From Pseudomonadota bacterium (GTDB lineage: Bacteria; Pseudomonadota; Gammaproteobacteria; Burkholderiales; Ferrovaceae), in contig JAJZDE010000023.1 in the NCBI GenBank assembly GCA_021828745.1, positions 1 through 14,858 of the forward strand: a stretch of 14,858 nt of DNA. Reading direction: 5' to 3'. The first letter of the stretch is position 1. The number at the start of each line of letters is the position of its first letter. The position numbers were made by a program, and so were the translations under genes. Shown here one piece after another: positions 1-14,858 of this stretch. The notes beneath the pieces were generated by a model. It saw only the letters and a list, made by a program, of their open reading frames with translations, was not told the DNA's origin and ran no database searches.

Positions 1-503
1 TGAATGCCATCAAGGAAATTGCGGACCAGACCAACCTGTTGGCGCTCAATGCGGCCATCGAGGCGGCCCGGGCGGGTGAACAAGGCAGGGGGTTTGCCGT
101 GGTGGCGGATGAGGTCCGCAAACTGGCGGGGCAGAGTGCCCAGAGTGGGGCTCTGATCGGCAAGGTTTCGCAGGATATCGGCGAAGGAACCAAGGAGGCC
201 ATTGCGCGCATCCAGTTGGCTGTGGACAAGGTGCGGTTTGGTGAAAAAATGGCAGAAAAAGCGGGCAGCACCATCGACGATATCGCCCAAAGTTCTGAAA
301 AGATCATGGCGGGGGTCGGGGACATCGTTGCCGCTGTCCAGTCCCAGAGCACAGAAGGACGGGAAGTGGCCAATCGCATCGAACAGATTGCCCAAGGAGC
401 CGAGAAAAATGCCGTGGTGGTTCAGACCATCGAAGAAGCCGAACGGATATTGTCCGCGCTGGTCCGGGAAATGGATGTGCAAACCCGCACCTTCAAGACT
501 TGA
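1..503 (+). CDS. Methyl-accepting chemotaxis protein, C-terminal part (start outside window)
   Basis: This is the cytoplasmic signalling domain of a chemoreceptor, which couples ligand sensing to the CheA/CheW kinase array at the membrane. The frame is open from the first complete codon at base 3 to a TGA at 501-503, giving 167 codons. It opens with the hairpin-tip core ([20 protein letters not shown], then [18 protein letters not shown]), the most conserved stretch of the MCP family. The rest is the descending helix with heptad-like alanine, glutamate and glutamine patterns. The protein ends in TRTFKT and lacks the NWETF-type pentapeptide that tethers CheR in some receptors. The sensor, membrane and HAMP parts lie upstream and cannot be described, so the ligand is unknown. 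The next gene is a c-di-GMP enzyme 96 bp downstream, which may reflect a motility or attachment theme but proves no functional link. Confidence 0.95.
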
Positions 504-576
504 ATGGGAAAAAATCTGAAGGGGAACAGGCTGACTTCACAGGGGGGCATTCGGGGTAATCCCTTTGTAAATGGAA

Positions 577-582
577 TATAAT
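577..582 (+). promoter_or_regulatory. Candidate -10 element for the GGDEF/EAL gene
   Basis: A perfect TATAAT lies 17 bp before the start codon at 600. No good -35 hexamer is seen 16-18 bp upstream and there is no TGn extension. The transcript would begin near 589, leaving very little leader before the Shine-Dalgarno site. This is therefore a plausible but weakly supported promoter. Confidence 0.35.
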
Positions 583-589
583 CCCACCT

Positions 590-597
590 GGAGGTGG
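590..597 (+). promoter_or_regulatory. Strong ribosome binding site deciding the start of the GGDEF/EAL gene
   Basis: GGAGGTGG complements the 16S rRNA 3' end. It places the ATG at 600 five bases after GGAGG. The in-frame GTG at 594 lies inside this site, so it is an unlikely start. Confidence 0.7.
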
Positions 598-599
598 GG

Positions 600-6638
<6,039 letters not shown>

Positions 6639-6661
6639 AAGAGGTTAGGGCTACCGATTAA

Positions 6662-7975
<1,314 letters not shown>

Positions 7976-7978
7976 CCA

Positions 7979-7987
7979 CGAGGAGGA
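7979..7987 (+). promoter_or_regulatory. Strong ribosome binding site of ftsB
   Basis: GAGGAGGAG precedes the ATG at 7991 and is one of the strongest Shine-Dalgarno matches in the window. It is exactly complementary over nine bases to CTCCTCCTC in the predicted small RNA at 12316-12454. That may simply reflect both sequences relating to the 16S anti-Shine-Dalgarno sequence. Confidence 0.7.
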
Positions 7988-7990
7988 GCC

Positions 7991-8308
7991 ATGTCACCGA
8001 CCACGATACGCCTGATACGCTGGTTGATGGTCGGTCTGATTCTTTCCCTGGGGTATGGGTTGGTATTGGGGAAGGGGGGCTGGGTTCGGCGTCAGGACCT
8101 GAAGCGTCAACTTCAGGGGCAGCGCGCAGTGAATCAGGCCCTGGAAAAGCGTAACCAGACCTTGCGTGCTGAGGTGGCGGACCTCAAGTCGGGCTCCGAC
8201 GCCATCGAGGAACGGGCGCGTCACGAGTTGGGGATGGTGCGCCCGGATGAAGCGTTTTACCAGTACTGGACGGTGACCTCATCTCCGCCCCCGATTGCGC
8301 CTCACTGA
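7991..8308 (+). CDS. ftsB: Cell division protein FtsB
   Basis: FtsB is a small bitopic inner-membrane protein that joins FtsL and FtsQ in the divisome and helps trigger septal peptidoglycan synthesis. The 105-residue product has a short cytoplasmic N-terminus, one hydrophobic segment at about residues 11-27, a periplasmic coiled coil at about 33-68 (rich in Q, L, E and R), and the family signature ERARHELGMVRPDEAFYQ near the C-terminus. A strong Shine-Dalgarno lies just upstream, 15 bp after eno, a neighbour often seen in proteobacteria. Its stop overlaps the convergent bamD stop by seven bases. The ispD gene that follows ftsB in E. coli is absent here. Confidence 0.93.
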   Translation: MSPTTIRLIRWLMVGLILSLGYGLVLGKGGWVRRQDLKRQLQGQRAVNQALEKRNQTLRAEVADLKSGSDAIEERARHELGMVRPDEAFYQYWTVTSSPPPIAPH

Positions 8309-9126
8309 CTGGTGCTGGTCTGCCAAAAGCGCCACCATTCGACCTTTTTGGCCAGATCGCCTTGCGCGGTCAGGTAGCGGCTTTTGGGGAAGTCCAGTTT
8401 GAGGACGCGCACCGTGTCCTGGCTCAGATCCTTGAGGCCCATGGCATCATAACTGCGCGCCATGATGTCGAGCGCGTCTTCCTGGGCGGCGGTGTGGGGA
8501 TAATCCCTCAGGATGTTCAGGGCCCGATCCGTCGAGGCTAGATAGGCCTGACGCCGATAATAGTAGCGTGCCACGGCCACATCGTTGCGCGCCAGGGCAT
8601 TGACCAGGTATTTCATGCGGATGATGGCATCGGGGGCGTAGCGGCTGTTGGGGAAGCGGGTGATCAGGTCGCGGAAGGCATCAAAGGAATCCTTGGTCGG
8701 TTTTGTGTCCCGCTGCACCAGATCGCTGTCAGTATAAATGCCAAAAATCCCCAGATCATCGCTGAAGTTGGCTAGCCCCTTCATGTAATAGGCATAATCC
8801 ACGGCCGGGTGGTTGGGGTGCGCCTTGATGAACCGGTCGGCTTCGCTGACTGCCGAGGTGGATTCATGTTGTTTGTAGTAGACGTAAATCTGCTCCAGTT
8901 CAGCCTGAGTGGAATAGGTACCGTAGGGATAGCGCGATTGCAAGGATTCATAGAGTTTGGCAGCCTGCTCATAGTTGCCTTCCTGCAGGTCCTTTTTGGC
9001 TTCACTATGGAGTTTGGCGGCCGACCAGTTTTTGGTGGGGTCATCGCTTTTTTCCAGTTCGCTACAGCCCACCAAGGCTATGACGAGAGTCAGGGCAACG
9101 TTTCGGAGTACACTGGAGTGTTTCAT
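8302..9126 (-). CDS. bamD: Outer membrane assembly lipoprotein BamD (ComL)
   Basis: BamD is an essential lipoprotein of the BAM complex, which folds beta-barrel proteins into the outer membrane. The protein has 274 residues and a lipoprotein signal peptide ending in the lipobox LVGC, with lipidated C21. Serine follows the cysteine rather than aspartate, consistent with outer-membrane sorting. The body consists of TPR-like helical repeats, with typical stretches such as NYEQAAKLYESLQSRYPYG, HPNHPAVDYAYYMKGL, FPNSRYAPDA and DFPKSRY. The start at 9126 is chosen because GGTGAG lies seven bases upstream (9134-9139) and because a TATAAT promoter at 9153-9158 would leave almost no leader for the alternative ATG at 9141. 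The gene is head to head with rluD, with the start codons sharing CATG, and tail to tail with ftsB. Confidence 0.95.
   Translation of the reverse strand: MKHSSVLRNVALTLVIALVGCSELEKSDDPTKNWSAAKLHSEAKKDLQEGNYEQAAKLYESLQSRYPYGTYSTQAELEQIYVYYKQHESTSAVSEADRFIKAHPNHPAVDYAYYMKGLANFSDDLGIFGIYTDSDLVQRDTKPTKDSFDAFRDLITRFPNSRYAPDAIIRMKYLVNALARNDVAVARYYYRRQAYLASTDRALNILRDYPHTAAQEDALDIMARSYDAMGLKDLSQDTVRVLKLDFPKSRYLTAQGDLAKKVEWWRFWQTSTSQ
9115..9120 (+). promoter_or_regulatory. Ribosome binding site favouring the rluD start at 9125
   Basis: GGAGTG (9115-9120) places GGAG six bases before the ATG at 9125. The alternative ATG at 9140 has no Shine-Dalgarno sequence. The site lies inside the bamD signal-peptide codons on the other strand. 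Confidence 0.5.
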
Positions 9127-10111
9127 GAAAATTCTCACCATGCAATCTTTTCATTATAACAGTCCTGAAGAGAATGAACCGCTGGAATTGAAGGTTCCCG
9201 TGGAATGCGGAGGGCTGCGTCTCGATCAGGCGCTGGCCCGTCTCTTCCCTGATTGGTCACGCTCCCGTTGGCAGGTCCAGATCGAAGCGGGGCGGGTTCG
9301 ACTGGACCAGGCACCGGCGCAGCAGAAGACGCGCGTCTGGGGAGGAGAAAACCTGTGGCTGGAGACCGAGCCGGAAGTCTTTTCGGAAGAAGTCATTCCG
9401 GAGGACCTCCCCATGGAAACCGTGGCGCTGGAGGAGTCCTTCAGGGTCATCCATAAACCTGCAGGTTTGGTGGTGCATCCCGGTCATGGAAACTGGCGCG
9501 GGACCCTGCAGAATGCCTTGCTGTTTCATGATCCGGCGGTGGCGCGGGTTCCTCGCAGTGGTATCGTGCATCGTCTCGACAAGGATACCAGCGGGTTGAT
9601 GGTGGTGGCACGGACGTTGACGGCTCATGGAGAGTTGGTGCGTCAGTTGCAGGCACGCACGGTGCATCGACATTATTGGGCGCTGGTTCAGGGCCAGGTC
9701 CTGGAGGGAGGGACGGTAGATGCGCCCGTGGGCCGTCATGCCACGCAGCGCACTCGTATGGCCATTACGACGGCGGGGCGCCCGGCTGTCACGCACTACG
9801 AGGTGGTGCGGCGTTTGCCCTGTCATACCTTGCTGGAATGTCGTCTGGAAACTGGACGTACCCATCAGATCCGGGTGCATATGCAGCATCTGGGGTTCCC
9901 TCTCGCCGGGGATCCTGTCTACAAGGGTAAAAGTATCATCCTCGATGGGCGCAGCAGTGCAGCATTGCGGGACTTTGGGCGACAGGCCCTGCACGCGTTC
10001 CATCTGGGATTCCTGCACCCCGACTCCCAGCAACCTTGTGCCTGGGAGATTCCTCTGGCCGAGGATATGGTCCGTTTGATCCAGGTGCTGGAAGAGGCCG
10101 CTCATGGGTGA
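9125..10111 (+). CDS. rluD: 23S rRNA pseudouridine synthase, RluD type
   Basis: This enzyme isomerises uridines in helix 69 of 23S rRNA (positions 1911, 1915 and 1917 in E. coli) during late 50S assembly. The protein has 328 residues against 326 in E. coli. An N-terminal S4 RNA-binding domain (LRLDQALARLFPDWSRSRWQVQIEAGRVRLD) is followed by the catalytic domain with IHKPAGLVVHPG, the active-site aspartate at about residue 152 in HRLDKDTSGLMVVA, and the conserved ETGRTHQIRVHMQHLGFPLAGDP. RluD is preferred over RluC because of the overall length, the S4 pattern and the neighbourhood (divergent bamD, then pgeF). The ATG at 9125 has a Shine-Dalgarno; the ATG at 9140 would remove five residues. 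The reading frame stays open to 8975, inside bamD, but that extension is non-homologous. The gene overlaps the pgeF start by eight bases. Confidence 0.93.
   Translation: MKILTMQSFHYNSPEENEPLELKVPVECGGLRLDQALARLFPDWSRSRWQVQIEAGRVRLDQAPAQQKTRVWGGENLWLETEPEVFSEEVIPEDLPMETVALEESFRVIHKPAGLVVHPGHGNWRGTLQNALLFHDPAVARVPRSGIVHRLDKDTSGLMVVARTLTAHGELVRQLQARTVHRHYWALVQGQVLEGGTVDAPVGRHATQRTRMAITTAGRPAVTHYEVVRRLPCHTLLECRLETGRTHQIRVHMQHLGFPLAGDPVYKGKSIILDGRSSAALRDFGRQALHAFHLGFLHPDSQQPCAWEIPLAEDMVRLIQVLEEAAHG
9153..9161 (-). promoter_or_regulatory. Extended -10 promoter for bamD, inside rluD
   Basis: Read on the minus strand this is TGTTATAAT, a perfect extended -10. The -35 position (CGGTTC at 9176-9181) is poor. 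Initiation near 9146 would give a leader of about 20 nt carrying GGTGAG before the bamD ATG at 9126. The element lies within the first codons of rluD. Confidence 0.6.
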
Positions 10112-10826
10112 ACAATCAGGCACGCCCTTGCCTGGAGGGCCGGTCGATTGGCCGGCTCCGCCCGGAGTGCGCACCTGGAGTACCCGGCGCGGTTTGGATT
10201 TGGGGTTGCAGGGAGTGACGGCACCCGAGCAGGTGAATCAACACCGGCAAACATTGGCGCGAACCTTTCAGATACAGCCATGGTGGCTGACCCAGGTGCA
10301 CGGAGTTGGAGTTAAAACGGAGCAGGAGGGGATGGATGGGGGGGCAGATGCTTCGGTGACCCGGCAGACGGGCATCGGATGCATCGTGTTGACGGCAGAT
10401 TGTTTGCCCGTGCTCTTTTGTCATGAACGGGAACCCGTGGTGGGCGCGGCACATGCAGGATGGCGAGGCCTGGCAGCAGGCGTACTGGAAAATACCCTGC
10501 AGGCCATGGCGGTGGACCCCGAGGGTGTTCTGGTCTGGTTGGGGCCGGCCATCGGGCCACAATCCTTCGAGGTGGGCACAGAGGTGCGGGAGCGATTTCT
10601 TCGATCCCAGCCCGAATCCGAAGAAGCTTTCCGTTCTGGCCAGGAGGGGAAATGGTGGGCGGATCTCTTTGCGTTGGCGCGCTTGCGTCTGGCTCGGTTG
10701 GGGGTCACCCGAATTTATGGCGGGGAACATTGCACCGTCCTGGAGAATGAATCGTTCTATTCCTACCGGAAGGAGGGTTTGGGGGCGGGTCGCATGGGAC
10801 ACGTCGTTTGGAGGGTGGAATCATGA
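10104..10826 (+). CDS. pgeF: Peptidoglycan editing factor PgeF / YfiH, multicopper polyphenol oxidase-like fold
   Basis: PgeF-family proteins were once called laccase-domain proteins. In E. coli the protein is reported to remove wrongly incorporated L-serine from peptidoglycan precursors. The 240-residue product carries the family motifs WLTQVHG, LTADCLPVLFC, GAAHAGWRGLAAGVLENT, LGPAIGPQSFEVG and the C-terminal FYSYRKEGLGAGRMG. The cysteine in TADC and the histidines in QVHG and AHAGWRG are the conserved metal or active-site residues. The N-terminal segment between STRR and the QVHG motif looks about eight residues shorter than usual and lacks a recognisable GGVSxGxY loop. The start codon overlaps the end of rluD by eight bases, with a GAAGAGG-like ribosome site upstream inside rluD, so the two genes are translationally coupled. 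The rluD-pgeF pairing is widely conserved. Confidence 0.92.
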   Translation: MGEQSGTPLPGGPVDWPAPPGVRTWSTRRGLDLGLQGVTAPEQVNQHRQTLARTFQIQPWWLTQVHGVGVKTEQEGMDGGADASVTRQTGIGCIVLTADCLPVLFCHEREPVVGAAHAGWRGLAAGVLENTLQAMAVDPEGVLVWLGPAIGPQSFEVGTEVRERFLRSQPESEEAFRSGQEGKWWADLFALARLRLARLGVTRIYGGEHCTVLENESFYSYRKEGLGAGRMGHVVWRVES

Positions 10827-10844
10827 AACGTGGGGGGAGGCGTA

Positions 10845-10850
10845 TAATGG
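10845..10850 (+). promoter_or_regulatory. Candidate -10 element for the ZIP transporter gene
   Basis: A perfect TATAAT lies 19 bp after the pgeF stop and 27 bp before the transporter ATG at 10878. No convincing -35 is seen. Initiation near 10857 would give a leader of about 21 nt that ends in a T-run and has no Shine-Dalgarno sequence. Confidence 0.4.
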
Positions 10851-10877
10851 CGGGGTTGCCTTCCTGATGCTTTTTTT

Positions 10878-11657
10878 ATGACACCGTTGATGAATTCTAT
10901 GCTGGCAGGGGTAGTGGCTGGCGTATTGTCGATGTTTTGTGCGGCACTGGTCATATATACTGCCCGTCCTGCCTGGGTTCCCATGCTGGTGAGTTACGCC
11001 ATTGGCGCCTTGCTGGGCGCCGTTTTTCTGGAAATCCTGCCCCATGCCTTTCAGCATGAGGCCAGCCCGGAAGCGGTTTCAGCCACGGTGCTGGTGGGTA
11101 TCCTGATTTTTTTTCTGCTGGAAAAGTTGGTGCTCTGGCGGCACGTCCATGTCCATGACGTGGTCGGACTGGAAGCTCACGCCCATGCTCACGCCCATGA
11201 GCCTCAGGGGCGGACGGGGGCCATGGTGGTGGTGGGGGATTCGGTACACAATTTCGTGGATGGAATTATCATCGCTGCAGCCTTTGTCAGCGATACCCGT
11301 TTGGGGATGGTGACGGCGCTGGCCATCATTGCCCATGAACTGCCTCAGGAAGCGGGGGATGCCTTGGTCTTGCTGCATTCCGGGATGTCCCGTCCGCGTG
11401 CCCTGGCCTTCAATCTGTTTTCGAGTACGGCGACCCTGGTGGGGGCGGTCATCGCCTGCCTGGCCTTGCAATCCCTGCAGAAATGGGTTCCTTACCTTTT
11501 GGCTTTGGCCTCGGCCAGTATGATCTATGTGGCGGTGGCCGACCTGATTCCCGGGCTACACCGTCGGGTGGATCTGCGTACCTCTGCCCTGCAGATGGGG
11601 TTGATCGTGCTCGGCGTGGCTTCCATTCATTGGGCTCATGTGTTGATTCTGGAGTGA
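10878..11657 (+). CDS. ZIP-family divalent metal (probably zinc) transporter
   Basis: ZIP proteins move Zn2+, and sometimes Fe2+ or Mn2+, into the cytoplasm across the inner membrane. The 259-residue protein is strongly hydrophobic with about seven or eight membrane spans. A histidine-rich cytoplasmic loop (WRHVHVHDVVGLEAHAHAHAHE) separates spans III and IV, as is typical. The intramembrane metal site is intact: HNFVDG (H124, N125, D128) in span IV and HELPQE (H153, E154, E158) in span V. The ATG at 10878 has no obvious Shine-Dalgarno; an ATG four codons later is an alternative. It lies 51 bp after pgeF, a place often held by clpB in related gene orders. Its last 102 bp overlap the end of the convergent phaR gene. 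The substrate cannot be settled from sequence. Confidence 0.9.
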   Translation: MTPLMNSMLAGVVAGVLSMFCAALVIYTARPAWVPMLVSYAIGALLGAVFLEILPHAFQHEASPEAVSATVLVGILIFFLLEKLVLWRHVHVHDVVGLEAHAHAHAHEPQGRTGAMVVVGDSVHNFVDGIIIAAAFVSDTRLGMVTALAIIAHELPQEAGDALVLLHSGMSRPRALAFNLFSSTATLVGAVIACLALQSLQKWVPYLLALASASMIYVAVADLIPGLHRRVDLRTSALQMGLIVLGVASIHWAHVLILE

Positions 11658-12131
11658 AGTCGCAACGGGAGTGTTTTCGACTTGCTGCTGTAACGTGTGA
11701 AACAACCGAGTGATCTGGTCAAGATGGTGTCCCATCAAATCCTGCAGGGAAGGTTTGTCATTGGCCGGGTACGGATCCTGGAGTTCTGTGCCGGGAGTTG
11801 ATCCGGCATCTTGCGAGGGGCTTTCGAGAACGTAACGCAATCCCTGTTCCAGATAATGACCGAGAAAGTGGTGCATGCCGTTGCCGTAGGAGCGGATCAT
11901 CCGGGAAAGCATCTCGCAACTGAAAAGAGGGGCTTTGCCCAATTCCTCTTCCAGGATGATCTGCATCAGGATGCAGCGGGTCAGGTCCTGTTGGGTTCTG
12001 GCGTCGATGACCCGAAAGGGGGCCTGTTCGAGAACCAACGTTTTGACTTCACAGAGCGTGATGTACCGCTTGGAGCGCGTGTCGTATAAGCGCCGATTGG
12101 GGTATTTCTTGATCACTCGTGGGTCTTTCAT
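11556..12131 (-). CDS. phaR: Polyhydroxyalkanoate synthesis repressor PhaR
   Basis: PhaR is a DNA- and PHA-granule-binding repressor. It shuts off phasin (phaP) and its own gene until polyhydroxyalkanoate granules titrate it away. The 191-residue product begins with the diagnostic N-terminal domain RVIKKYPNRRLYDTRSKRYITL, followed by the second conserved region LMQIILEEELGKAPLFSCEMLSRMIRSYGNGMHHFLGHYLEQGL. The C-terminus is low-complexity, rich in Q, H and N. The ATG at 12131 is chosen because AGGA lies seven bases upstream and because the family starts here. An in-frame ATG at 12191 would add 20 non-homologous residues and has no Shine-Dalgarno. The 3' end runs 102 bp into the convergent ZIP gene. 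A minus-strand promoter (TTGAGA-N17-TAATAT) and several TGC/GCA dyads lie upstream, which fits autoregulation. No PHA synthase gene is present in this window. Confidence 0.93.
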   Translation of the reverse strand: MKDPRVIKKYPNRRLYDTRSKRYITLCEVKTLVLEQAPFRVIDARTQQDLTRCILMQIILEEELGKAPLFSCEMLSRMIRSYGNGMHHFLGHYLEQGLRYVLESPSQDAGSTPGTELQDPYPANDKPSLQDLMGHHLDQITRLFHTLQQQVENTPVATSLQNQHMSPMNGSHAEHDQPHLQGRGTQIHPTV

Positions 12132-12148
12132 GGTTTTGTCCTGGGTAT

Positions 12149-12160
12149 GGTGCAGCACAA
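12149..12160. promoter_or_regulatory. TGC/GCA dyad in the phaR leader
   Basis: GGTGCAGCACAA contains the perfect inverted repeat GTGC-A-GCAC (12150-12158). It lies 18-29 bp before the phaR start codon, downstream of the predicted phaR promoter. It resembles the two dyads at 12258 and 12315 but has a one-base spacer instead of three. It is a candidate autoregulatory PhaR operator. Confidence 0.35.
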
Positions 12161-12209
12161 TAGGGGCATTATTCCATGAATAAGAGGTCATGGTGGGACA
12201 TTTAATAAA

Positions 12210-12238
12210 ATATTAATAAAACAATGAGATGATCTCAA
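12210..12238 (-). promoter_or_regulatory. sigma70-type promoter of phaR
   Basis: On the minus strand TTGAGA (12233-12238) and TAATAT (12210-12215) are separated by exactly 17 bp. Transcription would start near 12203 and give a leader of about 70 nt. The -35 overlaps a 13-bp palindrome. Confidence 0.5.
12225..12237. repeat. 13-bp palindrome at the phaR -35
   Basis: TGAGAT-G-ATCTCA is a perfect inverted repeat covering the predicted phaR -35 hexamer. Its sequence is unlike the TGC/GCA dyads, so a different regulator could bind here. No protein is assigned. Confidence 0.35.
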
Positions 12239-12257
12239 ATTACAGACAGGGCGGTAA

Positions 12258-12272
12258 TGTTGCGGTGCAACA
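12258..12272. promoter_or_regulatory. PhaR-like operator upstream of the small RNA promoter
   Basis: TGTTGC-GGT-GCAACA is a perfect 6-3-6 inverted repeat ending eight bases before the TTGACA at 12281. Its TGC-N3-GCA core matches the CTGC-N3/4-GCAG type of site reported for PhaR proteins in other bacteria. Assignment to PhaR is an inference from this core and from the adjacent phaR gene. Confidence 0.5.
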
Positions 12273-12280
12273 AAAAAGTG

Positions 12281-12309
12281 TTGACAAGAAACTTTTGCTC
12301 CAGTAATCT
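12281..12309 (+). promoter_or_regulatory. sigma70 promoter of the predicted small RNA
   Basis: TTGACA (12281-12286, a perfect consensus), a 17-bp spacer and TAATCT (12304-12309) form the best complete sigma70 promoter in the window. Initiation is expected near 12316. No protein gene begins close downstream; an intrinsic terminator follows about 110-140 bp later. Confidence 0.65.
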
Positions 12310-12314
12310 TGCAA

Positions 12315-12329
12315 TTGTGCGCTGCAACA
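12315..12329. promoter_or_regulatory. PhaR-like operator at the small RNA transcription start
   Basis: TTGTGC-GCT-GCAACA has the same 6-3-6 layout, core and right half-site as the dyad at 12258-12272. Its left half matches at four of six positions. It covers the expected +1, so a bound repressor would block initiation. Confidence 0.45.
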
Positions 12330-12454
12330 TGCGCAAGCCGGGGTGTCGGCCCTCTTGATTTCCGACCCGAATTTTTATCTCCTCCTCCTTTATTGCAAAG
12401 GTTTCCTTTCGATAGAGGCTTCAACCCGCAGAACAGACTCTGCGGGTTTTTTTT
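12316..12454 (+). ncRNA. Predicted small RNA of about 140 nt between phaR and rimO
   Basis: A consensus-like promoter and a strong intrinsic terminator bracket this stretch, and it has no credible coding frame. The only ATG-led frame near the start (12329-12358) gives nine codons with no Shine-Dalgarno. Visible hairpins are UGCGC/GCGCA (12318-12322 with 12331-12335), a longer stem of CGGG plus UCGG pairing with CCGA plus CCCG (12339-12349 with 12362-12369, with a GUG bulge), AAAGG/CCUUU (12397-12401 with 12405-12409) and the terminator. Between them lies an unpaired UCUCCUCCUCCUU (12378-12390), which resembles the 16S anti-Shine-Dalgarno tail and could pair with ribosome binding sites. Flanking PhaR-like dyads suggest control by the neighbouring repressor. 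The alternative is an attenuated leader of rimO. I recognise no named RNA family. Confidence 0.5.
12423..12454 (+). terminator. Strong intrinsic terminator
   Basis: AACCCGCAGA and TCTGCGGGTT form a perfect 10-bp stem (12423-12432 with 12439-12448) around the loop ACAGAC. A run of eight T (12447-12454) follows. There is no T-run on the other side, so it works only on the plus strand. It ends the predicted small RNA, 71 bp before rimO. Confidence 0.9.
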
Positions 12455-12513
12455 GTCCTCTGCTACCATAGGGGCCAAAGGGTCCTGCGCTGGTGTGGGA
12501 CCCATTGACCGTC

Positions 12514-12519
12514 AAGGAG
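12514..12519 (+). promoter_or_regulatory. Ribosome binding site deciding the rimO start
   Basis: AAGGAG lies six bases before a GTG at 12526 and nine before a second GTG at 12529. Both suit initiation, whereas the more upstream GTG at 12493 has no such site. Confidence 0.65.
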
Positions 12520-12525
12520 TCTTTT

Positions 12526-13878
12526 GTGGTGAATCGTCAGCCTTCCGCTTCTTCCGTACCGCGCGTCGGTTTTGTCTCTCTGGGCTGTCCCAAGGCGTTG
12601 GTGGATGCCGAACGGATCCTGACGCAGGTCAGGGCCGAAGGGTACGACGTGGTGGGAGATTATGGGGGGGCGGACGTGGTGGTGGTGAATACCTGCGGCT
12701 TCATCGAATCGGCCATCGAGGAGTCTCTGGACGCTATCGGAGAAGCACTGGCGGAAAATGGGCGAGTCATCGTGACCGGCTGTCTGGGGGCCCAGGCAGG
12801 CAAGATTCTTGCTGCTTACCCACAGGTATTGGCGATTACGGGACCTCATGACCAGGCAGGGGTGATGCAGGCGTTGCACGAACACCTCCCGCAGCGTCAT
12901 GATCCCTTCACCAGCTTGATTCCGCCCCAGGGGATCAAGTTGACCCCGGCGCATTACGCCTACCTCAAGATTTCCGAGGGGTGCAATCATCGCTGCACGT
13001 TCTGCATCATTCCTTCCCTGCGTGGGGATCTGGTCAGCCGTCCGCTTGGGGAAGTGCTGCAGGAGGCCGAGCATCTGGTCCAGGCCGGGGTTCGGGAGTT
13101 GTTGGTGATTTCTCAGGACACCAGTGCCTACGGGGTGGATGTGCGGTACCGAACAGGCTTCTGGCAGGGGCGTCCCCTGCGTACCCGGATGACGGAACTG
13201 GCCCGTGCCCTGGGCCAGATGGGGGCCTGGGTGCGCCTGCATTATGTTTATCCGTACCCCCATGTGGACGAGTTGATTCCCCTCATGGCCGAGGGGTTGG
13301 TTCTGCCTTATCTGGATGTTCCTCTGCAGCATGCCAGTCCGCGTATTCTGCGCGCCATGAAACGGCCGGGAGATGTGGAACGGACCTTGGAACGCATCCA
13401 GTCCTGGCGTCGTGATTGTCCCGATCTGACCTTGCGCAGTACCTTCATTGCGGGGTTTCCCGGTGAAACGGAAGAGGATTTCCGGCAATTACTGGATTTT
13501 CTGGAGGAAGCCCAACTGGACCGGGTGGGCTGTTTTGCCTATTCTCCGGTGGAAGGGGCTACGGCCAATGCATTGCCGGATCCCGTGCCTGCTACCCTGC
13601 GTGAAGAACGCTTGGCACGTTTCATGGAGCGCCAGGAGAAGATCAGCGCGCAGAGGTTGCAACGTTTTGTGGGGCGCGACTGCCAGGTACTGGTGGATGA
13701 ACTGACGCCCGAAGGGGGAGCAGTGGGGCGCAGTGCGGCAGATGCGCCGGAAATTGACGGCATCGTGGCCATCGCACCGGCGACGGGATTCAAGGTCGGC
13801 GAGTTTGTGACCGTTCGCATCGAAGAGGCCACGGCCCATGACTTGAGCGGCTTCAGGGTGGATCATGCACGCACATAA
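12526..13878 (+). CDS. rimO: Ribosomal protein S12 methylthiotransferase RimO
   Basis: RimO is a radical-SAM enzyme that adds a methylthio group to the conserved aspartate of ribosomal protein S12 (Asp88 or Asp89, depending on numbering). The product has 450 residues against 441 in E. coli. The N-terminal UPF0004 domain carries three cluster cysteines: C21 in LGCPKA, C57 in NTCGF and C86 in TGCLGA. The radical-SAM CxxxCxxC motif is at C153, C157 and C160 (CNHRCTFC). A TRAM domain forms the C-terminus. The wording [14 protein letters not shown] separates RimO from the tRNA enzyme MiaB. A GTG start at 12526 is preferred, with 12529 possible. A weak extended -10 (TGCTACCAT at 12467-12475) just after the upstream terminator may provide its promoter. 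The downstream gene overlaps its end by 14 bp. Adjacency to phaR is familiar from betaproteobacteria. Confidence 0.96.
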
Positions 13879-14755
13879 GACGCTGGTGGTGCCGGGCCTG
13901 TTTCCGGCCTTGCCCGATTCGGCGGTGCCCGCCGTGCCGGCATTGGAAAAAGCCTGGAGCCAGGGGGATCGGGAGGTCTTTGAACGGCCCCTGACGTTGG
14001 CCCAATGGCCCCTCCAGGAGGGGACGACGTGGGAAAGCGCGCGGCGCGCCCAGGAAGCGGGGATTGCCCAGGCAGCCCCCCACTGGTTATGTGCGGATCC
14101 CATTCACCTGCATGTGGAAGGGGATGGGTTGATTTTGCACGATGATTATACGTTTGGGCTGAGCGCAGAGGAAAGTCGCGGGTTGCGGGAAGATCTCAAT
14201 GTCCATTTTGCGGCGGATGGTCTGTGGTTTCATGAGGTTACGCCGACCCGTTGGCTACTGGGCCTACCCTCACTCCCGGAGATCGAGACGACGCCCCCCC
14301 TGCAGCGGGTTGGGCGCAATATCGACGGTCATTTGCCGCGAGGGGCTCAGCGTGCTTTGTGGCAAGCCCGCTTCAACGAGATCCAGATGGTCCTGCACGA
14401 CCATCCCCTCAATCAGGCTCGCCAGGCTCGGGGGCAGCGGGTGATCAGCGGGGTCTGGTTATGGGACGAGGCCTGTACCCGGCCGGCGCACGAAGTGGTG
14501 GAGACTTTGCGTGCCCCTTCCGCCTATGGCGATACGGAAGGATGGGTGGCCGCTCTCGAAGATTTTTTAGGGACGCACTGGCAGTACTGGCAGGCTCAGT
14601 TGCGTCAGGGAACCCTCGAAACCCTGACCCTGGTGGCACTGGAAGGACGCTTCAGCGGTCAGGTGGTCCTGAGTCGTTCACAGCGCTGGCGATTCTGGCG
14701 TAAGGTTTTGCCCCTGATGCAGATGCCGGGGGTGCGTCCCCTGCGCGAATCCTGA
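13865..14755 (+). CDS. RpfE-type / putative phosphoglycerate mutase-like conserved protein
   Basis: The 296-residue protein has no signal peptide or membrane span. It matches the betaproteobacterial and xanthomonad family variously annotated as RpfE-type regulatory protein or cofactor-independent phosphoglycerate mutase-related protein. Recognisable family stretches are [22 protein letters not shown] (about 73-94), [25 protein letters not shown] (about 111-135), the NIDGHLPRG region, and [20 protein letters not shown] followed by GVWLWDEA (about 170-203), where family members usually read SLWLWGGG. The biochemical function is unknown; the name RpfE comes from the Xanthomonas rpf pathogenicity cluster. 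The ATG at 13865 lies inside the end of rimO, with a 14-bp overlap in another frame, so translational coupling is likely. In relatives as I recall them, recJ follows this gene and then prfB; here recJ is missing. Confidence 0.7.
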
Positions 14756-14761
14756 TGGTCA

Positions 14762-14775
14762 GGGAAGGGCTTCCC
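14762..14775. repeat. 14-bp palindrome upstream of the last gene
   Basis: GGGAAG-GG-CTTCCC is a near-perfect hairpin (six-base arms, two-base centre) five bases upstream of the TATAAT at 14780. No T-run follows, so it is not a standard terminator. It sits at the promoter spacer and could be an operator, or a pause or processing hairpin at the end of the preceding mRNA. Confidence 0.35.
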
Positions 14776-14779
14776 GAGG

Positions 14780-14785
14780 TATAAT
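14780..14785 (+). promoter_or_regulatory. Candidate -10 element for the probable prfB gene
   Basis: A perfect TATAAT lies 30 bp before the ATG at 14816. The best -35 is TGGTCA (14756-14761, 18-bp spacing, four of six matches). Initiation near 14792 would give a leader of about 24 nt without a clear Shine-Dalgarno sequence. Confidence 0.5.
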
Positions 14786-14815
14786 CCAAGGCTTTATTGG
14801 CGAGAATTTCATCCC

Positions 14816-14858
14816 ATGGAAGCGGAACAACTGAATGCCCTGGAAACCCTTCAACAGG
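14816..14858 (+). CDS. prfB: Probable peptide chain release factor 2, first 14 codons (truncated by window end)
   Basis: Only MEAEQLNALETLQQ is visible. This resembles the short helical N-terminus of RF2 in betaproteobacteria (MEAExxN...), the factor that terminates translation at UAA and UGA. The position after an RpfE-type gene fits the rpfE-recJ-prfB-lysS neighbourhood seen in relatives, minus recJ. The programmed +1 frameshift site found near codon 25 of many prfB genes would lie beyond the window. Too little sequence is present to exclude another protein. Confidence 0.5.
   Translation, partial: MEAEQLNALETLQQ

Follow-up and report, generated by a model that had tools for sequence, protein, structure and literature searches.

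The interval between phaR and rimO in the DNA analysed here probably carries a PhaR-repressed small RNA gene that arose from the 3'UTR of a phasin gene and was kept after the phasin had been lost. The window, that is the whole stretch studied, comprises 14,858 nt (contig JAJZDE010000023.1, assembly GCA_021828745.1, forward strand, positions 1-14,858) from a Pseudomonadota bacterium of the Ferrovaceae, Burkholderiales. In the proposed mechanism, a conserved 77-nt core (Table 1) would encode a trans-acting small RNA whose gene derives from the 3'UTR of phaP. In the window's genus both the phasin frame and the PHB synthase would have been lost, so that the former phasin promoter with its two PhaR operators would now drive the RNA directly. 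PhaR would repress this promoter, and its departure would give a transcript of about 139 nt, to be trimmed near position 12378 to a stable 77-nt RNA. The free CU-rich 5' end of this RNA would then pair with the Shine-Dalgarno sequences of its targets and block their translation, probably together with Hfq. This grading refers to the chain as a whole, including action in trans; our confidence is higher for the anatomy and lower for the trans mechanism.

Table 1. Features of the phaR-rimO interval and its flanking genes (positions in the window).
Feature	Position	Strand	Remarks
phaR, repressor of the PHB system	11556..12191	-	TIGR01848 118 bits over cut-off; PF07879 and PF05233 partial
PhaR operator-like site 1, ATGTTGCGGTGCAACAA	12257..12273	.	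just 5' of the -35 box; 1 mismatch to the C. necator palindrome YTKNTGCRNYGCANMAR
Sigma-70-type promoter TTGACA-N17-TAATCT	12281..12309	+	-35 at 12281-12286, -10 at 12304-12309; read in the sequence; same layout in 8/8 genus loci and in relatives' phasin promoters
PhaR operator-like site 2, ATTGTGCGCTGCAACAT	12314..12330	.	over the predicted start (about 12316); 2 mismatches
Predicted 5' leader of the primary transcript	12316..12377	+	start at about 12316 predicted from the promoter; removal proposed
Conserved small RNA core, 77 nt	12378..12454	+	family and order searches; model R1 88.7 bits in the window
CU-rich 5' end UCUCCUCCUCCUUU, Shine-Dalgarno-complementary	12378..12391	+	columns 2-14 invariant in 20 family sequences
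Hairpin 1, 14 pairs	12387..12418	+	covariation in family and wider alignments
Hairpin 2, intrinsic terminator with T-run	12423..12454	+	10-pair stem 12423-12448, T to 12454
rimO, downstream neighbour outside the element	12493..13878	+	TIGR01125 556 bits

A conserved core behind a variable leader

phaR and rimO flank the interval on either side; comparison with relatives makes a phaR start codon at 12131 more likely than one at 12191. A preliminary description had proposed an undescribed small RNA gene of about 140 nt here, with a promoter, a 10-bp terminator stem and no credible reading frame between them. These three elements of its anatomy hold. The -10 box of the promoter is weak (3/6 consensus positions), and the promoter was missing from the list of a pattern scan, yet TTGACA-N17-TANNNT is readable at 8/8 genus loci. 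The terminator stem is present as described; since the scan found 3 terminator-like sites against a shuffle mean of 1.2, the terminator alone is little above chance. No frame of at least 30 aa starting in the leader was common to four genus loci (L001, L006, L007 and L009, with none at all in L007), and neither of the two longer frames overlapping the interval had a Pfam match. Elsewhere in the window, at 4138-6560 on the minus strand, three frames (329, 210 and 263 aa) likewise gave no Pfam match in a test covering the minus-strand frames.

Folding of positions 12316-12454 (139 nt) gave -47.5 kcal/mol (z -3.82), a value that none of 200 shuffles equalled. As judged by comparison with relatives, however, conservation is the feature that clearly exceeds chance. 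When 61 relatives were searched with a 216-base DNA query, 29 genomes matched, all from the window's family (29/32), while the 29 genomes from other families gave no match. The full query including the promoter half matched in five close genomes, and the promoter half partly in one more. Of the 24 matched genomes outside these five, 23 had a main match starting at about 12377-12379 and one (G006) at 12364, indicating that the constant unit is about 77 nt. The conserved unit is thus the 77-nt core, not the whole of about 140 nt, and the family retains it far more widely than the promoter half.

The approximately 62 nt preceding the core look like a dispensable leader, as both their sequence and their length vary within the genus. 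This bears on whether the primary transcript of about 139 nt, rather than the trimmed 77-nt form, could be the working RNA. The genus-conserved promoter does predict a start near 12316, but we regard a working 139-nt form as unlikely, given the variable leader and the fact that in phasin-linked relatives the phasin frame occupies its place.

Distribution of the core

The covariance model R1 was built from 20 family sequences; the family has 24 distinct cores, of which L002, L010, L014 and L025 were omitted from the alignment. R1 found the core in 29/32 family genomes at E < 1e-11, with one such match per genome. With regard to the remaining three, nothing scored at E up to 1 in G009 or G028, and G026 had just a 21-bit match; the contig of G028 stops just past phaR and the operator pair. 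An order-wide R1 search (300 Burkholderiales genomes, E up to 0.01) matched 42 genomes, nine from the family and 33 others, the latter carrying the core at 34 places. A second model, R2, was built from 40 matches, including two RF02278-like copies of locus L059. In a class-wide search (274 genomes) it matched G001 and, outside the order, only four weak candidates of 30-32 bits, which we took as chance because no phaR or phasin lay within the fetched stretch.

A search of 80 PhaR loci from named genomes, together with that of the window, yielded six R1 matches (the window, L067, L068, L069, L111 and L073) and ten R2 matches at E up to 1. Three of the four additional R2 matches (L116, L127 and L140) follow a phasin next to phaR and differ in their hairpin, whose loop is CU-rich; the fourth (L087) is unlinked and RF02278-like. 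The other 71 loci gave no R1 or R2 match within the stretch searched, which leaves most named genomes with no core detected in the vicinity of phaR.

Covariation in hairpin 1

Hairpin 1, which has a 3-nt loop in the window, covaries. Among 40 sequences, 10 of its 14 pairs showed compensatory changes on both sides, with a covariation of 0.331 (shuffles 0.136, slid controls at most 0.113) and 95.3% of cells paired (shuffles 82.7%, slid controls at most 62.8%), in an alignment that was structure-fitted and thereby favours this hairpin. A structure-free alignment of 20 family sequences still gave both-side changes at 5/14 pairs. The terminator is misaligned in this family alignment, and R1 and R2 therefore pair hairpin 1 only.

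Operator-like sites for PhaR at the promoter

Two sites resembling the palindrome deduced for C. necator PhaR (PMC12849132) lie around the promoter, 57 bp apart (Table 1). When the window was scanned for this palindrome, position 12257 alone had at most one mismatch, and four places had at most two, two of them flanking this promoter. Shuffles of positions 12192-12377 contained two sites (at most two mismatches) in 9/2000 cases. Pairs spaced 54-60 bp apart were present at 8/8 genus loci and 33/34 phasin-linked loci and in 0/2450 shuffles, these counts omitting L010, L041 and L059, which have no PhaR-to-RNA stretch. Among the free loci, in which the RNA lies beside phaR with no phasin upstream, 2/7 of the first set, all from other families, had a pair. 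Scanning the whole stretch of 12 later-fetched pha-linked loci revealed pairs in ten, including 6/6 free ones, which brings the free loci outside the genus to 8/13 over both sets. A genome-wide scan for exact palindrome-core pairs, which cannot detect pairs with core mismatches, returned one place per genome in 8/8 genus genomes, namely this promoter, and no exact pair in these eight genomes for the reversed control pattern. A SECIS_4 match at 12253-12279 (E 0.13) was rejected, operator-like site 1 lying inside it and accounting for it as a palindrome.

The order site-TTGACA-spacer-TANNNT-site is identical to that of the relatives' phasin promoters. The C. necator phaP1 promoter shares the palindrome, with one site 5' of the -35 box and another around the start (PMC12849132); it drives a phasin, whereas the window promoter precedes the RNA in a genus in which we found no PHB synthase. 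A similar motif, TGNTGCN3GCAA, belongs to the H. seropedicae regulator PhbF (PMC3206438).

Linkage to phasin genes

In the family outside the genus, the RNA starts just past the stop codon of a phasin gene at 21/21 loci as judged by a custom profile, and at 20/21 by Pfam PF09361, the contig of the exception (G021) starting within the gene. All 34 places outside the family were inspected with phasin and PhaR profiles built from family loci: 19 have a same-strand phasin upstream, ending 1-129 nt before the RNA, 13 are free beside phaR, and two (L059 and L275) have neither and are RF02278-like. Since the R1 genome search was blind to phasin and PhaR genes, the link to them was not built in. By position, the RNA would fit a 3'UTR product at the 21 family loci and the 19 phasin-linked places, whereas the window has no intervening phasin. 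The link to carbon storage, which the preliminary description had guessed from the position beside phaR, gains support both from this placement behind relatives' phasins and from the paired operator-like sites.

Phasin absence at the 13 free loci outside the genus was judged by the custom profile; Pfam, run on seven of these, agreed for all seven. The genomes of the seven free loci of the first set have a phasin elsewhere (7/7), and the window's genus is the only one, of the genomes tested, without any phasin. A PhaR tree of 58 rows needs eight changes between the free and phasin-linked states, at least six of them forced by the starred branches, and does not tell gain from loss; it omits L029, L044 and L281, and L010, L041, L059, L275, L277 and L278 have no PhaR. 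Comparisons within genera favour loss of the phasin. L049, which has a phasin, and L267 and L273, which have none, belong to a single genus of another family; their sequences match as far as the promoter and resume matching at the RNA, the phasin stretch being missing from L267 and L273. L052 and L058 likewise match on the promoter side and in the RNA, with the phasin stretch absent between them. L058 retains a piece of the L052 phasin stretch, its 3'-terminal 35 nt or so; no other convincing phasin remnant was found at the free loci searched. A weak tblastn match in L001 (E 5e-4, 36 aa) was considered chance, covering the promoter and being absent from L006, L007 and L009 (two phasin queries). 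The proposal that the old phasin promoter now directly drives the RNA follows from the missing phasin frame in the genus.

Hairpins at the 3' end can stabilise mRNA, and the element could accordingly be nothing but a phasin 3' end, a terminator with a stabilising hairpin that has no trans function and is a leftover in the genus. Its location immediately after the end of the phasin frame in the family outside the genus would fit this, as would the lack of a standout target in the genus (see below). We nevertheless consider such a purely structural role improbable. In the genus no phasin was found, yet the CU stretch and most of the core are near-identical while the leader drifts, and 13 other places keep the RNA beside the promoter without a phasin. 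The repeated changes of state in the PhaR tree, whatever their direction, also speak against it, and constancy is highest in the CU stretch, which begins with unpaired nucleotides (the first 9 nt, outside hairpin 1) that would be of no use to a stabiliser. We therefore retain the PhaR-repressed, trans-acting RNA as the better reading. CpxQ and SdhX of enterobacteria are 3'UTR-derived regulatory RNAs that share the promoter and terminator of their parent mRNA; here, unlike in those cases, the parent frame is absent at several loci while the RNA and a parent-type promoter are retained.

Two further observations concern individual loci. Upstream of the RNA in L041 (G115), the phasin match is split over two overlapping frames, and the sole Pfam phasin hit of that genome is partial, possibly reflecting a phasin decaying beside an intact RNA or a sequencing error. 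In two genomes of one family, a TPP riboswitch lies near the phasin-linked RNA locus (L040 99-202 and L042 1884-1994).

Absence of phasin and PHB synthase and divergence of PhaR

Phasin (PF09361) was found in 0/8 genus genomes, three of which are less than 90% complete, against 24/24 other family genomes. The PHB synthase PhaC (PF07167) was found in 0/8 against 21/24, and the three negatives of the latter group coincide with the three family genomes that lack the RNA.

PhaR itself has diverged unevenly. The DNA-binding half of four genus members had a mean identity of 71% to that of ten other family members, much like the 72% of seven PhaRs from other families. In contrast, the PHB-binding repeats scored 39% and 26% in the genus and 57% and 53% in other families. 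The PF05233 (PHB_acc) scores were 32-57 bits in four genus PhaRs and 102-106 bits in three PhaRs from the rest of the family; two PhaRs of other families reached 113 and 64.8 bits. As L007 (56.8) comes close to L060 (64.8), this score alone does not separate the genus PhaRs. These sequence comparisons indicate that divergence of the genus PhaR affects the PHB-binding repeats and has spared the DNA-binding half.

Relation to known small RNAs

At gathering thresholds, Rfam found nothing in the window. The best match of the interval was RF02278 (Betaproteobacteria toxic sRNA), with 27.6 bits (gathering 50, E 0.0011); the second best was anti-hemB (RF02837), which has a similar double hairpin, but at 22.3 bits against a gathering threshold of 49.5. 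An ar14 hit (15.1 bits, E 1.2) was taken as chance, and MmgR/alpha-r8, for which Rfam may hold no model, was not among the interval's matches up to E 5. In the literature searched, which largely excluded subscription papers, we found no published description of a phasin-linked small RNA. The RNA does have kin in the double-hairpin RNAs of RF02278.

These RNAs (ncS03, ncS05, ncS27 and ncS62 of B. cenocepacia, bdhR1, and S17 of Bordetella) share the layout of the core, namely a CU-rich 5' end complementary to ribosome-binding sites, one hairpin and a terminator, in about 57-92 nt (PMC11722255, PMC5688073). Four such RNAs are reported for Herbaspirillum (PMC7011215) and B. cenocepacia (PMC4603805). 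S17S arises by processing from the 3' portion of a longer transcript (PMC11722255, PMC5688073); its 5' end is CU-rich in a similar way, and it acts directly to repress a lacZ reporter (PMC11722255). Predicted targets of the B. cenocepacia RNAs belong mostly to transport and carbon metabolism; growth slows when ncS27 is overexpressed (PMC11722255, PMC5688073). MmgR of S. meliloti (alpha-r8) likewise has 77 nt, acts in PHB metabolism and is repressed by the PhaR homologue AniA; it differs in being alphaproteobacterial and is not described as a phasin 3'UTR product in the sections consulted of PMC8401924 and PMC12542648. S17S and MmgR are precedents for steps of the proposed mechanism, not as proof of them here.

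Could the RNA simply belong to RF02278, with the pha-linked copies forming an outlying branch? RF02278 is the best Rfam match and the layout is equal; the window has the CU-rich 5' end and the 3' terminator. The structural border is moreover blurred, because the hairpin loop of the phasin-linked L073, L116, L127 and L140 of the named genomes is CU-rich, like that of RF02278 (a feature read from the sequences of the fetched RF02278 loci), which makes a common origin possible. In the window, by contrast, the loop of hairpin 1 has three nucleotides and is not CU-rich, the score is well below threshold, and the RNA is linked to phaR and, in relatives, to phasins. The scanned pha-linked loci L040-L058 also fall below the threshold, and the L060 place reaches 40.0 bits. 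RF02278 exceeded its threshold in 58/150 genomes of the order; 0/30 of these above-threshold loci had a phasin or PhaR within 1.5 kb, compared with 32/34 R1 places outside the family, and in four genomes (G071, G079, G112 and G122) both RNAs occur at separate places. We thus doubt that the RNA is a member of RF02278, and prefer to see it as a separate, phasin-derived RNA.

Some loci of these types deserve mention in their own right. L116 (5016-5071), L127 (124-176) and L140 (4260-4320, minus strand) contain a hairpin with CCUCCUCCU in its loop followed by a terminator, perhaps a second form of the phasin-linked RNA that is nearer to RF02278 in build. L059 (G206) carries two RF02278-like copies 0.87 kb apart (1499-1560 and 2372-2434; 45.5 and 44.7 bits) and, according to custom profiles, no PhaR or phasin. 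G039 has nine RF02278 matches and G087 eight (E up to 0.001), compared with three to five in Burkholderia (PMC5688073).

Finally, a role as leader or attenuator of rimO, which the element precedes in the window, is most improbable, as a terminator lies before rimO, printed frames place rimO behind the RNA in 6/8 genus loci with none seen in the other two, and 18/21 family loci outside the genus have a convergent phaB-type gene there instead (one tested, TIGR01829 366.5 bits); the RNA accompanies phaR, not rimO, which upholds the original choice of a small RNA gene over a rimO leader.

Candidate targets

Complements to the CU-rich end were searched for before ATG codons. The 9-nt AAGGAGGAG occurred at 37 places in 14 family genomes, compared with 20 for the reversed pattern, and at 14 places in the eight genus genomes, compared with 10. 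The 10-nt AGGAGGAGGA occurred at 23 places in 32 genomes, one of them the antisense strand of the RNA itself (L217), against 9 for the reversed pattern; in the genus the figures were 3 and 1, all three sites preceding short frames. No target stood out in this search of the eight genus genomes. Sites were seen there before ssb (3/8 genomes) and a TrbF-like gene (3/8), and both may be due to chance.

Outside the genus, the start of 2-methylcitrate synthase (prpC) has a 13-nt complement to the CU end in all four genomes of genus g3 (G010, G017, G022 and G026), including G026, where the RNA was not found. Complements of 9 and 12 nt occur at FabZ starts (G014, G015), of 12 nt at FabG-like starts (G020, G031), and of 10 nt at an acetate-CoA ligase-like frame (G012) that, at 430 aa, is shorter than its family. 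Other long frames behind sites encode solute-binding proteins (G010, G015), an MFS-like protein and a TAT-signal protein. One copy each of the synthase, FabZ, FabG and the ligase and three binding proteins were tested, the others being named by eye. Pairing of the first 16 nt of the RNA with the starts of phasin, phaR and rimO, calculated with no controls, was mostly weak (rimO -8.5/-8.6 kcal/mol), with stronger values for the L052 phasin (-17.4 kcal/mol) and for phaR of L027, L053 and L056 (about -15 to -16 kcal/mol); we draw no conclusion from these uncontrolled energies.

Implications

On a broader and distinctly more tentative level, many Burkholderiales may have in the small RNA, and not in the phasin, a lasting product of PhaR control, with repeated losses of the phasin frame from between the operators and the RNA. 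In the window's genus, where the whole PHB pathway would be gone, PhaR would then be a former PHB sensor with diverged repeats that controls one paired-operator target, the RNA, as a stand-alone circuit answering some other signal. This would raise the question of what PhaR senses in bacteria without PHB.

If the proposed mechanism is true, many Burkholderiales control their storage polymer through an RNA as well as through PhaR itself. Once PHB granules have attracted PhaR, the mRNA of the phasin would also give rise to a small RNA able to turn down other genes. The candidate targets outside the genus, with perfect CU-site matches of 9-13 nt at their starts, include 2-methylcitrate synthase, FabZ, FabG and the acetate-CoA ligase-like protein. 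The system would also show clearly that a regulatory RNA can outlive both its parent gene and the pathway that gene served, and would make the evolution of 3'UTR-derived small RNAs directly testable.
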